Virus record (IMG/VR): IMGVR_UViG_3300017756_003168
Span: 1-27,330 of that record
Reading direction: 5' to 3' (one strand)
Length of the DNA stretch: 27,330 bases
Source: a virus
A program made the position numbers and the translations under genes. Under the pieces are notes generated by a model that had not been told where the DNA came from, ran no database searches, and saw only the letters and a program-made list of their open reading frames with translations. Positions 1 to 11,999 of this stretch are shown here, one piece after another; within the stretch, counting starts at the first letter, position 1, and each line of letters begins with the position of its first letter.

Positions 1-8
1 AAATTTAG

Positions 9-82
9 TGGAGGATATCGGAGTCGAACCGATGACCTCCTGCGTGCAAGGCAGGCGCTCTAGCCAGCTGAGCTAATCCCCC
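9..82 (-). tRNA. tRNA-Ala (anticodon UGC)
   Basis: The minus strand folds into a full 74-nt cloverleaf: a 7-bp acceptor stem, a 4-bp D stem, a 5-bp anticodon stem with loop CTTGCAC (anticodon TGC at 48-46), a 5-nt variable loop and a 5-bp T stem with loop TTCGACT. The acceptor stem carries a G3:U70 wobble (window positions 80 and 12), the known main identity element for alanyl-tRNA synthetase, and the discriminator is A73. CCA is not encoded after A73, so the host must add it. It lies 6 nt beyond the stop of the preceding gene and is probably co-transcribed with it. A synthetase-like gene for the same amino acid lies at 11011-11862. Confidence 0.96.
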
Positions 83-2834: not shown

Positions 2835-3354
2835 TTGCAGTTTCTAAAGTAGGTTCAACTTCTTCCGTATTTTCGATTGAAGAAATGTTAGTGTCAAGAT
2901 CTCTTAATCTAACATGCATTTCTGAAATTTCTTTATTAGACTCAGTAAGTTCATTCATTGCATTAGTTACTGACTCACCTACTAATGTAAGCATTTTTAC
3001 AAATTTTCTTGCGTTTTCAACGCCAGTTCCATTTACATTTAATAATGCTTGGTAGAGACCATTTAACTCATAAGCCTTAAGCTCTAAAGTTACCTTATAA
3101 TCATCTCCTGCTGTTTCCATTTCTTTTTTAATTCTACTTCTTTCTGCTTTTAACCTATCAAATAAAGTTACAACAATAGCTGCATTCTTAGTTTCCCAAG
3201 TATATCCTTTATTTAAATGGTCTTGAATTGTTTTAATCATTGTTACGTCTTCAACTTCTACATTAAAAATCTTAGCCGCATTTTCTTTAGCAAGCTCAGT
3301 AACTTTACCTTCAAGTTCTGTTCTTTCTGCTTTTAAATCTTCTAAATTTGTCAT
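2818..3354 (-). CDS. Hypothetical coiled-coil protein (178 aa)
   Basis: Residues 1-30 (LEDLKAERTELEGKVTELAK) and about 120-165 have heptad-like spacing of Leu, Ile and Val with many Glu and Lys, so two helical coiled-coil segments are likely, flanking a central helical region. No catalytic motif. A late-type motif AGGATATATAAA lies about 25 nt upstream (3378-3390), the best match in the window, so a structural or assembly role late in infection is possible. The C-terminal tail is Glu/Thr-rich and probably disordered. Confidence 0.7.
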   Translation of the reverse strand: MTNLEDLKAERTELEGKVTELAKENAAKIFNVEVEDVTMIKTIQDHLNKGYTWETKNAAIVVTLFDRLKAERSRIKKEMETAGDDYKVTLELKAYELNGLYQALLNVNGTGVENARKFVKMLTLVGESVTNAMNELTESNKEISEMHVRLRDLDTNISSIENTEEVEPTLETANETKG

Positions 3355-3377: not shown

Positions 3378-3390
3378 ATTTATATATCCT
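3378..3390 (-). promoter_or_regulatory. Candidate late promoter motif
   Basis: Minus strand AGGATATATAAAT, about 24 nt before the ATG at 3354. It contains TATAAAT, close to the T4 late consensus. It lies in the short gap after the guanylate kinase stop and would separate the long metabolic operon from the genes downstream. Confidence 0.5.
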
Positions 3391-3862
3391 AAAATTCTGG
3401 ATTAGTCACTCGTAGATCATACTCTTCGAATTCGTTAAATTGCTTCATATCCTCAATCTCTCTTGACATTGGATGGTAAGCTTTATCATCTCTCAAGATT
3501 AATCTAGTTAACCTTGTAGTAGGGTTAATATCTAAGTAAATTATTAGACATTCTTTTTTAATATCTTCTGGTAATAACTTAAGACCATCAGGTGACATGA
3601 TTAATACATCGCTTTTTTGATATTCTTCTCTCGTCATTCCATATTTCCAACCTTTAAAATCCATATACTCAAGCATATCGCCAGATTCTACGATTTTCAT
3701 AAAGGTCTCATCATCTGTGTAATAATAATCTACACCTTCTGTTTCTGTTTCTCTTGGAGCTCTTGTTGTATGGCTTACAGCTCCTTTAAAACCTTTTTCT
3801 GCAAGTCTTGCTCTAAAATAATCTTTACCTGCTGCGGCCTTGCCTACTAATATAATTTTCAT
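3389..3862 (-). CDS. gmk: Guanylate kinase-like protein
   Basis: A 157-residue P-loop kinase. GKAAAGKD (7-14) is the Walker A loop; SHTTRAPRETETEGVDYYY (from residue 30) is the GMP-binding signature of guanylate kinases, SHTTRxPRxGExxGxxYxF; the segment RDDKAYHPMSREIEDMKQF is the lid. It would phosphorylate GMP/dGMP to the diphosphate with ATP, supplying nucleotides for phage DNA synthesis. It is somewhat shorter than cellular enzymes (about 200 residues). The ATG at 3862 overlaps the stop of a 59-residue gene (ATGA). It sits at the end of the operon with the PurU-type gene, which also feeds purine metabolism. T4 uses an unrelated dNMP kinase (gp1). Confidence 0.85.
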   Translation of the reverse strand: MKIILVGKAAAGKDYFRARLAEKGFKGAVSHTTRAPRETETEGVDYYYTDDETFMKIVESGDMLEYMDFKGWKYGMTREEYQKSDVLIMSPDGLKLLPEDIKKECLIIYLDINPTTRLTRLILRDDKAYHPMSREIEDMKQFNEFEEYDLRVTNPEF

Positions 3863-4067: not shown

Positions 4068-4901
4068 TTAAAAAATTACAGTTTTATTTCCGTTTAAAAA
4101 TATTCTCTGTTCACTATGATATTTTATTGCTTTTGATAGTGTGGCTTTTTCAAGGTCTCTACCTATTAACTCCATATCCTTTGGACTTTTTGAGTGATCT
4201 ATCCTTTCTACCATTTGTTCAATGATTGGACCTTCATCAAGGTCTGCAGTAACATAATGTGCTGTAGCTCCGAGAATCTTAACTCCTCTATCATGTGCTT
4301 GATGGTATGGCCTTGCTCCTTTAAAACCTGGTAAAAATGAATGGTGAATATTTATAATCTTGCCTGAATATAATTTACAAAATGTAGGAGATAATATCTG
4401 CATATATCTTGCAAGTACAATTAATTCTATATTTCTCTCTTCTAGAATTTCAAATGTAATTTCTTCTTGTTCTTCTTTAGTTTCTTTTGTAATTGGAATG
4501 TATCGATACTCTATGCCCATGCCTTCAACAAGTTTTCTCATATCTTCATGGTTTGAAATTACACATTGAATATCTATGTTTAGTTCACCTGCACTCCACT
4601 TATATAAAATGTCATGTAAGCAGTGTCCGTATTTAGAAACAAATATTGCTGTCTTTGGTTTATTTTCTACTTCCTTTAAAGACCATGTTGCACCAATGTC
4701 ATCTGCTACTTTTTGAAATTCAACATGATTAAACTCATTTAGAGATGCTATTTTTGTTAGCATAAAAAAGGTATTAGTATCTTTATCTCCATACTCCTTT
4801 AATTCTCTAAAGAAAAATCCAAGTTTTGTAACAATTTCTGAAATTCTAGAAACTATTCCAAAACCATCTTTACATCTTATTTTTAAAATATATTCTTTCA
4901 C
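4068..4901 (-). CDS. purU: Formyltetrahydrofolate deformylase (PurU)
   Basis: A 277-residue protein matching PurU over its whole length. Residues about 4-75 form the N-terminal ACT-type regulatory domain; 82-277 form the formyl-transferase/deformylase domain, with LARYMQILS (163-171), INIHHSFLPGFKGARPYHQA (183-202) and ADLDEGPIIEQ (219-229). The Asn-His-Asp catalytic residues of the family correspond to Asn184, His186 and Asp222, all present. The reaction hydrolyses 10-formyl-THF to formate and THF; in cells it balances the one-carbon pool and can supply formate for purine synthesis. The gene overlaps the GH16 gene by 4 nt and is in the same operon as guanylate kinase. A purU in a phage is uncommon in my knowledge. 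Confidence 0.93.
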   Translation of the reverse strand: MKEYILKIRCKDGFGIVSRISEIVTKLGFFFRELKEYGDKDTNTFFMLTKIASLNEFNHVEFQKVADDIGATWSLKEVENKPKTAIFVSKYGHCLHDILYKWSAGELNIDIQCVISNHEDMRKLVEGMGIEYRYIPITKETKEEQEEITFEILEERNIELIVLARYMQILSPTFCKLYSGKIINIHHSFLPGFKGARPYHQAHDRGVKILGATAHYVTADLDEGPIIEQMVERIDHSKSPKDMELIGRDLEKATLSKAIKYHSEQRIFLNGNKTVIF

Positions 4902-5638
4902 TTAGTAGATAGCGGTTCGTATTTAAAATTTCTTACAACATATTCTGAAGTAGGGTGATTGTTTACATCTACTCCTGCATCAACATGTGCATTTATTTTT
5001 ACATTCATTGATGTGCCATGATATTCTTTCAATAACTCAGGATCTTTAAGCTCTCTAACTAGTCTATCATTATAAAATATTTTAATCACATCTTCAGTCC
5101 ATAAACATCCAAATTTATTAAAGTGTTTTGCTGGATTTTTCCAACCTAACCAATGGGTCTTTGGTCCTAAATGATAATTATCAGGTTGTTTTCCACAGTG
5201 AAAATTAGTTTCTACTCTCCAAAAACCAAATGGATTAAAAAGATCAAAATGAAAAAAATGTTCTTTGTTTTTTGAATAAGCCTCAAAGACATCAATTTCA
5301 GGTGGCCAACTTTCAAATGGACTCATCCAAAATGCAGGCCATAGATTCTTACCTGTTGGTAACTTAGCCTCTATTTCAAAATATCCGTAGCCAAAGCCAT
5401 CAACGCTTGATACTAAACCTACTCCTATTGGAATTTCAAGTTCTGTTAATTCTGAACTATAATGAAGTGCCTTGCCTTTAAATGTTTTTGGATTCATTTG
5501 AGTCTTTAAGATCATTTCGTCCTTTTCATTTATTTCTATTGCGCTTCTATCATAGTAACAATATGTTTTGTCAGGGTGATATGTTCCCCATTTTTCTCTT
5601 GGACGCCATTTATATCCGCCCCATTGTATATGTGCCAT
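4898..5638 (-). CDS. Glycoside hydrolase family 16 protein
   Basis: A 246-residue GH16 beta-jelly-roll enzyme. EIDVFE at 114-119 is the GH16 catalytic signature ExDxxE: Glu114 nucleophile, Asp116 assisting, Glu119 acid/base. It has the beta-bulge form with an extra residue, typical of laminarinases, agarases and carrageenases rather than lichenases. Trp-rich substrate-cleft segments NLWPAFWM (98-105) and FESWPPEI precede it. YGYFEIEAKLP (84-94) is also typical. There is no signal peptide, transmembrane segment or binding module, so it either acts after lysis, is carried on the particle, or works inside the cell. The exact polysaccharide cannot be read from sequence. It is encoded between the thioesterase and purU genes and overlaps the latter by 4 nt. 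Confidence 0.9.
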   Translation of the reverse strand: MAHIQWGGYKWRPREKWGTYHPDKTYCYYDRSAIEINEKDEMILKTQMNPKTFKGKALHYSSELTELEIPIGVGLVSSVDGFGYGYFEIEAKLPTGKNLWPAFWMSPFESWPPEIDVFEAYSKNKEHFFHFDLFNPFGFWRVETNFHCGKQPDNYHLGPKTHWLGWKNPAKHFNKFGCLWTEDVIKIFYNDRLVRELKDPELLKEYHGTSMNVKINAHVDAGVDVNNHPTSEYVVRNFKYEPLSTK

Positions 5639-5639
5639 T

Positions 5640-6026
5640 TTATTTTTTAAATTTCTTTTTTACTCTTTCTGAAATTGGAATTGCATCTCCCATTTCATCA
5701 ATTCTTACAAACTTTACATTTGTTTGTAAAATAATATTTTGTTTGCCATTATAAACATTATGGCTTCTGGCTTCTAAATATAAATCTATAGAAGTTGTTC
5801 CTATATTATCTATCTTAGCATACATCTTTAAAAGTTGACCTTCCTTTGCTGGCTTTGTGAAAACACATTTATCGATACATTTTGTAACCATTCTTGGAGT
5901 ATCGCACATTTCTGCTGCATAGCTTGCTGCGGCTGCATCTAACCAAGCCAAGAGTTTCCCTCCAAACAAGTTTCCATGAAAGCCTAAATCTGATTTTTTT
6001 ATTGGGTGTGTACTAACTAACTGCAT
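5640..6026 (-). CDS. Acyl-CoA thioesterase, hotdog fold
   Basis: A 128-residue single hotdog domain of the YciA/acyl-CoA hydrolase type. HGNLFGGKLLAWLDAAAA (17-34) is the family signature with the catalytic-site Asp at 30; VTKCIDKCVFTKPAKEGQLL (from residue 47) and IGTTSIDLYLEA follow the usual order of strands. It would hydrolyse acyl-CoA to free acid and CoA, acting in the cytoplasm as an oligomer. It starts the metabolic group thioesterase - GH16 - purU - guanylate kinase, with 1 nt between its stop and the GH16 start. Its role in infection is unknown; changing membrane lipid or freeing CoA is a guess. Confidence 0.88.
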   Translation of the reverse strand: MQLVSTHPIKKSDLGFHGNLFGGKLLAWLDAAAASYAAEMCDTPRMVTKCIDKCVFTKPAKEGQLLKMYAKIDNIGTTSIDLYLEARSHNVYNGKQNIILQTNVKFVRIDEMGDAIPISERVKKKFKK

Positions 6027-11010: not shown

Positions 11011-11862
11011 TTATAGACCTAATTCGTTCATTTCATCGATGTCGATACCATGTGTATCAAACCACCATTCTTTATCTTTATCTTGGTGCTTTTCCTTAAG
11101 TCTAAGATACCTAAGTTTCGTTTTTTCTTGTCTTTCAACTTCTTTTCTAAAAAACTCATGATCCATATAACCATTATTACTATATAAAATTCTAAGAAGT
11201 TTACGCAATACATAACCTTGTTTTTGTGGACCTGGCTTATAACCTGAATCTATAATTTTTAATATAGTGTCTTCGAGTGTCTCATTTGCACTCTTTATCT
11301 TTGTACCATTAACTATAGCATCAAGTCGCTCAAGGCCAAACCCGACATCTATAAAGTCTCCTGAGGTGTTTACAATGTTACCTATTTCTATACCATCGTG
11401 ATAGAATTCTGTACAATATCCTCCCATTTCTCCATCTGTCCAAACACATTCATCATCTAATTTTAAGGGAGTTTTATAAAGGTCATACATCCATTTCCAA
11501 TTATCAAATTTATCAGAATGAATTGTTGCACAATCAACATGAATGTCAAGTTCTTCTTGTATAAATCCCATCCAAAATTCAACAGCCTTATTAACTGTCA
11601 TTTCTCCAAAACTAAAAAGACCTAACATGTTAAAATATAAAAGATGACTTCCATCTCCTATCTCATCAATATCTTGTAGTCTTAAACATGATTGAACATT
11701 GGCTATTGTTGTACCATCTGGATTTTTAAAACGATCTTTAAATTGCTGCATGCCAGCAGGACAGAAAAGTGTTGTATCATCATAAGGTCTTACATGATTA
11801 TCCATTTGAAATTGAATTCCATGTCTTTCACAATATGTAATATACTTTTCTAAAACATTCAT
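11011..11862 (-). CDS. Compact alanyl-tRNA synthetase-like protein
   Basis: A 283-residue class II synthetase of the AlaRS type. AGMQQFKDRF (36-45) and QSCLRLQDIDEIGDGSHLLYF (from 57) through NMLGLFSFGE (78-87) correspond to motifs 1-2; DGEMGGYCTEFYHDGIEIGN (143-162) is the adenylate/alanine pocket; GFGLERL (174-180) is motif 3. GYVLRKLLRILY (216-227) and FDTHGIDIDEM (268-278) recall conserved parts of the tRNA-recognition domain. The editing and C-Ala domains are missing; cellular AlaRS is about 870 residues. It may charge the phage tRNA-Ala at 9-82, or may have been turned to another amino acid-transfer reaction. The start overlaps the stop of the preceding small gene (TAATG). Confidence 0.85.
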   Translation of the reverse strand: MNVLEKYITYCERHGIQFQMDNHVRPYDDTTLFCPAGMQQFKDRFKNPDGTTIANVQSCLRLQDIDEIGDGSHLLYFNMLGLFSFGEMTVNKAVEFWMGFIQEELDIHVDCATIHSDKFDNWKWMYDLYKTPLKLDDECVWTDGEMGGYCTEFYHDGIEIGNIVNTSGDFIDVGFGLERLDAIVNGTKIKSANETLEDTILKIIDSGYKPGPQKQGYVLRKLLRILYSNNGYMDHEFFRKEVERQEKTKLRYLRLKEKHQDKDKEWWFDTHGIDIDEMNELGL

Positions 11863-11999
11863 TATTTACCTTGTCTATTATATGGTTTTTTATAATTTTT
11901 AGACTTTTTATTATTAGAAGTTTTTTTAGAGTGTTGACCCTTTCTTCTTCTTTTCATTCCATCTAAATTACCATTTCCTAATGCTTTTACTCTTGACAT
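11862..11999 (-). CDS. Small, very basic protein (45 aa)
   Basis: A 45-codon frame starting MSRVKALGNGNLDGMKRRRK. About 15 of 45 residues are Lys or Arg, with many Asn, Gly and Ser, so it is probably unstructured alone and binds RNA, DNA or the ribosome. Its stop overlaps the AlaRS-like start (TAATG), giving translational coupling. That coupling may hint at a shared role in translation, but this is inference. Confidence 0.65.
   Translation of the reverse strand: MSRVKALGNGNLDGMKRRRKGQHSKKTSNNKKSKNYKKPYNRQGK

Follow-up and report, generated by a model that had tools for sequence, protein, structure and literature searches.

A compact alanyl-tRNA synthetase encoded by a phage, and apparent frameshift control of its relatives at an alanine codon

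Alanyl-tRNA synthetase (AlaRS) has ∼876 residues in enterobacteria, where it includes editing and C-Ala domains. Can an open reading frame (ORF) of 283 codons, one third of that length and lacking both domains, encode such an enzyme? The question is raised by a virus record of 27,330 bases (the whole stretch analysed, hereafter the window), in which the neighbouring genes form a T4-type phage set comprising large terminase, tail sheath and tube, head closure, a sigma-70-like factor, DNA ligase and a 5′-3′ exonuclease. A first-pass annotation had reported the ORF and given its coordinates, which held, but not its strand; the ORF lies on the minus strand (Table 1), and the plus strand of the same interval is riddled with stops. 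It starts with an ordinary ATG and has homologues, five of which, from the window clade, gave dN/dS values of 0.06-0.12, indicating that the gene is under purifying selection. ORF length is kept across dozens of independent contigs. The overlap between the AlaRS start and the stop of a small basic ORF suggests translational coupling of the two; this basic ORF is conserved in the close relatives L002-L006, and searches of protein families and PHROGs gave no match for it. Elsewhere in the window we observed a PurU/PurN-like formyltransferase-domain gene (PF00551, 3e-37), unusual beside phage structural genes, as well as adjoining glycosyl hydrolase and thioesterase genes and a guanylate-kinase-like gene.

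Table 1. Positions of the features discussed, in the window unless another contig is named.
Feature	Position	Strand	Remark or basis
Compact alanyl-tRNA synthetase, 283 aa	11011..11862	(-)	ATG 11862-11860, stop 11013-11011
45-aa very basic ORF (MSRVKALGNGNLDGMKRRRK...)	11862..11999	(-)	stop overlaps AlaRS start (TAATG)
Motif 3 region IDVGFGLERLDAIVNG, residues 171-186 including D172, R179	11300..11352	(-)	alignment
tRNA-recognition domain remnant, PGPQKQGYVLRKLLR helix to WWFDTHGID	11041..11235	(-)	profile search, alignment
tRNA-Ala(UGC), acceptor GGGGGAU/AUCCUCC, A73, G3:U70	8..82	(-)	tRNA search; probable substrate
Formyltransferase-domain protein	4068-4901	(-)	PF00551
Glycosyl hydrolase family 16 + 4HBT thioesterase	4898-6026	(-)	adjoining genes
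Guanylate-kinase-like gene	3389-3862		
Compact HisRS with +1 break	L267, L269, L271, L273, L277-L287 (mostly around 2850-3010); L292 1400-1500		
ThrRS of G015	L154 1213-1303		no in-frame start
GlyRS-like family, ∼225-255 aa	L151 1282-2022; L156, L161, L227-L246		normal starts
PheS-related 'SrmL'	L162 1950-3050		NF051887, 434 bits
tRNAs with two-base anticodons	L081 921-994; L095 1623-1696, 1791-1863		ARAGORN

Profile searches identified PF01411 (tRNA-synt_2c) as the sole Pfam family in the 283-aa protein (E 2.4e-20, above cut-off). The NCBIfam model TIGR00344 (alaS) matched with 75 bits; its cut-off for full-length proteins, 457, lies far higher, as most of the model is missing from the protein. 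The DGEMGGYCTEFYHDGIEIGN and GFGLERL motifs, on which, among other features, the AlaRS reading had originally been based, are present. The protein also matched AlaRS fragments in the PDB, and a profile of the whole family retrieved AlaRS chains only. An AlphaFold2 model built from 43 window and locus sequences (pLDDT 92, pTM 0.84) was compared with the PDB by Foldseek. A best structural match to another class II family had been named in advance as the outcome that would speak against AlaRS; ranks 1-27 all went to AlaRS, with TM to query reaching 0.78, and among them were the AlaSA-bound E. coli fragment and the complexes of A. fulgidus AlaRS with tRNA. GlyRS-alpha, PylRS, SepRS and PheRS ranked after AlaRS with weaker E-values. 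Identity to solved bacterial and human AlaRS was ∼20% over the structural alignment. Judged by profiles and predicted fold, the 283-aa protein is a compact class II AlaRS of family PF01411.

The active site was inspected by aligning the window protein with three bacterial AlaRS and by scoring conservation in 44 phage sequences with identities as low as 41%. As in cellular AlaRS, the catalytic core has class II motifs 1-3 and the AlaRS-type amino-acid pocket (CxR...H...F.M.G.FSF; W; EI.N.V; D.G.GLER). Residues R61, W141, E159, N162, V164, D172, G174, G176 and R179 were invariant in the 44 sequences, and motif 1 (YDDTTLFCPAGMQQFK), H73, F77, M79, G81, F83, F85, W141 and the stretch E159-I-G-N162-I-V164 were invariant or nearly so. 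Loss of the ATP-binding Arg or Asp/Glu residues was the other outcome held to count against AlaRS, and the motif-2 Arg (R61), the motif-3 Arg (R179) and the Asp of the motif-3 region (D172) are all retained. Absent from the phage protein is the GGKH insertion that follows the motif-2 Arg in bacterial AlaRS and holds K73 (E. coli numbering); the phage loop at this place reads RL(Q/N)D(I/L)(D/E), and the stretch also scores against an archaeal AlaRS model (6e-9 for the LR745206 protein).

The first-pass annotation had the protein stopping where the editing domain would begin, which is true in part. The editing (PF07973) and C-Ala domains are indeed absent, but alignment showed that the last part of the aminoacylation domain is gone as well and that internal deletions have removed catalytic-domain loops, the linker that follows motif 3 and, from the tRNA-recognition domain, the greater part of its middle. 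Both the catalytic and the tRNA-recognition domains are thus shorter than in cellular AlaRS. Traces of the latter, already suspected, correspond to a remnant in which the DTHG element is kept; the protein ends (DTHGIDIDEMNELGL) directly after this element, which corresponds to 'DTYG' near residue 400 in E. coli. The window enzyme would have no proofreading of its own, and no freestanding PF07973 domain was found in 21 carrier records; this counts against the AlaRS reading, since any Ser/Gly mischarging would need to be tolerated, or else removed by the host.

A viral precedent for such reduction, absent from the first-pass annotation, is the mini-AlaRS of Tupanvirus (TuAlaRS, 461 aa), a working enzyme that reads G3:U70 (PMC10036535). 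Like the window protein, TuAlaRS is a viral AlaRS without editing and C-Ala domains, made of aminoacylation-domain sequence only, and in both cases a viral G3:U70 tRNA-Ala is also encoded. Since TuAlaRS aminoacylates without these domains, their absence makes the window protein a variant and does not exclude it from AlaRS. In E. coli, N303 and D400 read G3:U70, N303 contacting U70 (PMC10036535). D269 of the window protein aligns with D400, and P212 with N303; Pro also occupies the N303 place in TuAlaRS, which lost both equivalents yet still reads G3:U70. Several relatives of the window protein have Asn at the first place and others lack Asp at the second. There are also differences. The 461 residues of TuAlaRS amount to roughly the whole aminoacylation domain, whereas the window protein is ∼180 residues shorter and carries internal deletions; TuAlaRS is related to the AlaRS of its amoeba host, whereas the window protein belongs to a phage family; and activity was demonstrated for TuAlaRS, whereas for the window protein it is predicted. 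Several points count against such activity: the shortness of the window protein relative to TuAlaRS, Pro at its N303 place, the uneven retention of the D400 equivalent among relatives, and the E. coli N461 fragment, which, though larger than the window protein, binds tRNA poorly and does not complement yeast (PMC10036535).

A probable substrate is at hand. The window tRNA-Ala is almost identical to the tRNA-Ala that directly follows the mini-AlaRS of LR745206, a 634-kb uncultured phage in which the synthetase gene lies ∼370 bases upstream of the tRNA and adjoins a mini-GlyRS. All 22 carrier records contain tRNA genes. Twenty distinct tRNAs were called Ala; 17 have a normal acceptor stem with G3:U70 and A73, and the other three, of which two are 'AGC' calls whose variable arms are long and one folds weakly, are unlikely to be true tRNA-Ala. 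G3:U70 and A73 therefore occur in 17/17 bona fide phage tRNA-Ala, and G3:U70 in 2/159 other tRNAs. We infer both the aminoacylation activity and the specificity of the window protein, and consider it very likely that the ORF encodes a minimal AlaRS charging G3:U70 tRNA-Ala via the acceptor stem. The catalytic domain and the tRNA-recognition remnant would make alanyl-adenylate and load alanine onto the phage's own tRNA-Ala, and probably onto that of the host too, with the acceptor stem alone being recognised.

Catalytic-domain-only relatives of synthetases often serve acceptors other than tRNA; EpmA/PoxA and SerRS-like carrier-protein ligases, for example, hand amino acids to non-tRNA acceptors. 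A paralogue passing an activated amino acid to a protein, carrier protein or metabolite would fit a protein that has lost its editing and C-Ala domains together with a large part of tRNA recognition, but not one that retains a mid-domain remnant with its DTHG element. Moreover, all carriers have tRNAs and carriers encode G3:U70 tRNA-Ala, compact synthetases and tRNA clusters adjoin the gene in LR745206 and in the 508-kb phage G015, no carrier-protein neighbour was seen, and an Ala codon at the frameshift site of relatives (see below) connects the gene to Ala-tRNA supply. Of the two readings offered by the first-pass annotation, we favour aminoacylation because G3:U70 tRNA-Ala is carried and the relatives are tied to an Ala codon, and regard transfer to another acceptor as highly improbable. 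A protein without catalysis of its own, whether one half of a split AlaRS, a booster subunit for the host AlaRS or a decoy for tRNA or ATP, is also very unlikely. Such a role would suit a protein very small for a stand-alone enzyme and devoid of C-Ala, and no partner was found by homology; however, the same 21 carrier records hold no separate editing fragment, and the decoy variant is weakened because the checked catalytic residues, which a decoy would not need, are all invariant across a divergent family. Charging of tRNA-Ala by the protein itself is thus the reading that we retain.

How widespread is this kind of AlaRS? Searches by tblastn and pattern scans recovered ∼55 viral relatives, 41-95% identical and nearly all ∼280 aa, in addition to that of LR745206. 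The genome collection gave at least one match, on a contig, probably of phage origin, in a Rhizobiales assembly, and the family appears essentially confined to phages. In a phylogeny against cellular AlaRS, a check put forward with the original annotation, a fully supported branch split the phage family from three bacterial AlaRS. Relatives with a frameshift-type arrangement occupied the deepest branches, the window clade has plain ATG starts, and the distribution of start types on the tree requires at least three changes.

That arrangement was found in 15 relatives (L010, L062, L074, L076, L081, L082, L083, L084, L086, L097, L165, L166, L177, L218 and L220) without a usable in-frame AlaRS start, a few of them having weak upstream alternatives. 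All share the motif ATG...[G/A]AC-GCN...stop, from which the AlaRS frame is reached only by a -1 shift at the Ala codon. The off-frame start is ATG or GTG, usually after GGAGG, as illustrated by L086 (ATG ACA CTG CGG GAC GCC TAA), L220 (ATG TCA CCG CTA AAC GCA ATG TAA) and L074 (GTG GAC GCA ATT TAA). There is a single invariant place, with GAC/AAC in the P site and GCN (Ala) in the A site in 15/15 sequences, the third base of GCN being A, C or T. The overlapping Arg codon in the AlaRS frame is CGC every time, although CGC makes up only ∼1-7% of Arg codons in these AT-rich phages; from codon use at the loci, the product probability of CGC throughout (14 sequences) is ∼10^-15 if they are independent, which they are not fully. 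The motif was also considered as a general phage element by a ATGACACNGCNGGACGC scan (53 contigs); among the loci collected, its looser ATG form occurred only in front of AlaRS.

In deeper-branching relatives, AlaRS synthesis therefore appears to depend on -1 ribosomal frameshifting at a conserved Ala codon. When Ala-tRNA is scarce, the GCN codon would stay unfilled, the ribosome would slip by -1 and AlaRS would be made; when Ala-tRNA is plentiful, the early stop would be reached and no AlaRS produced. Such hungry-codon control would be sensible only for a product that charges tRNA-Ala, which gives it a bearing on what the window protein does, even though the window gene itself lacks the arrangement; the window clade may have lost frameshift control or never had it.

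Offset starts could instead reflect non-AUG initiation, assembly errors, or a leader ORF followed by re-initiation. AUU stands just after the motif in L010, L062 and L081, and a search downstream for a conserved stimulatory RNA structure gave no consistent signal (z -4.3 to +0.8); at the L086 shift site, Rfam gave no element besides an upstream tRNA. However, L074, L076, L086 and L097 have AAU, CUA or CUG after the motif, and non-AUG initiation was rejected as a common cause since the codon at this place varies (AUU, AAU, UUG, CUA, CUG). Sequencing error was rejected on the grounds that many contigs share the offset, with identical frame and position, and that the HisRS gene of the cultured phage Phosso (below) has one too; L091 and L097 have further breaks that may be errors. 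Motif, frame relation and Ala codon are identical in 15 sequences from deeply separated branches, and CGC is kept in the AlaRS frame despite its rare use. Re-initiation does not suit HisRS because its long conserved 0-frame N-terminus could not come about that way. We consider these explanations unlikely and retain frameshifting. As a separate observation, in phages that need the -1 shift for AlaRS, ARAGORN called tRNAs whose anticodon loops are short and whose anticodons have two bases; doublet decoding is conceivable there.

A parallel case came from compact HisRS, the N-terminus of which, MLRGTR(V/I)...LRG, lies in another frame, so that many HisRS tblastn matches begin at residue 38. In 16 sequences from 16 phages, the two frames join at (C/G)TT CA(T/C) and a +1 shift is needed, with TGA directly next in 12/16, so that the site is built as AGGGGG-NNN-CTT/GTT-[His codon]-TGA. 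If the shift is assumed, a product of 202-213 aa results, as long as the unshifted homologues. The cultured Sinorhizobium phage Phosso (PV764938.1) carries this version with a tRNA-His gene just upstream, and its annotation starts the HisRS gene late. A conserved early frame-0 stop, beyond which the protein continues in a different frame, is thus found in 15 AlaRS and 16 HisRS sequences, and in every one the A-site codon is cognate to the controlled synthetase, Ala at AlaRS and His at HisRS. Missing in-frame starts are not an artefact of the method, since 19/19 mini-GlyRS genes and 33 genes of Thr, Asp, Asn, Lys, Ser and Pro type served as controls and start in frame, the exception being the ThrRS of G015. 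This single example reads ATG GGA ACG(Thr) AAA ATT TAG; the enzyme lies in frame -1, and a Thr codon stands where a shift could occur. No relative beyond itself was found in the viral set at the sensitivity used.

Taken together, these observations make it likely that phages control compact synthetases by hungry-codon frameshifting (AlaRS by -1 at Ala, HisRS by +1 at His, perhaps ThrRS by -1 at Thr), each enzyme being produced chiefly under shortage of its own aminoacyl-tRNA, and that this control was ancestral in the AlaRS family and dropped in the window lineage. It resembles the autoregulatory +1 programmed frameshift of prfB, with its cassette AGGGGG-NNN-CTT-TGA (PMC12421855), in that translation in frame 0 terminates early and the complete protein is reached by a shift when the factor decoding the A site is in short supply; at the HisRS site, the SD-like AGGGGG, the 3-nt spacer and CUU/GUU match as well. 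It differs in that the A site is slowed by a sense codon (His, or Ala with -1) and not by an RF2-read UGA, and in that the gene product is the synthetase for the slow codon. According to a 2016 review, there was no known hungry-codon frameshift making a trans-frame protein with a starvation-specific function (PMC5009743). We found no earlier report of frameshifting in phage HisRS or other synthetases in a search mainly of the open literature without bioRxiv, and one may exist elsewhere.

The first-pass finding stands, the window AlaRS being real, compact and probably active, a smaller variant of the Tupanvirus kind; the larger novelty lies in the control proposed for its relatives. If active, the window AlaRS would be far smaller than the 461-aa viral enzyme and would show how little protein suffices to read G3:U70. 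If true, frameshifting at a cognate codon would be a natural and direct sensor of tRNA charging that uses the ribosome alone, and its HisRS version in a cultured Sinorhizobium phage makes it experimentally accessible now.

Compact synthetases are also found more widely in these phages. Huge phages encode up to 15 synthetases and many tRNAs (Al-Shayeb 2020, PMC7162821), which the carriers resemble in their synthetase sets; that report does not speak of frameshifting, and no mention of compact AlaRS or HisRS was seen in the portions considered here. Catalytic-domain-only GlyRS (∼246 aa) and HisRS (∼211 aa) occur in carriers and related huge phages, and in G012 mini-AlaRS and mini-HisRS overlap in one operon. 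A GlyRS-like family of huge phages lacks the anticodon-binding domain and has normal starts. Finally, in a 508-kb phage, a PheS-related 'SrmL' gene of unassigned function directly follows mini-HisRS.
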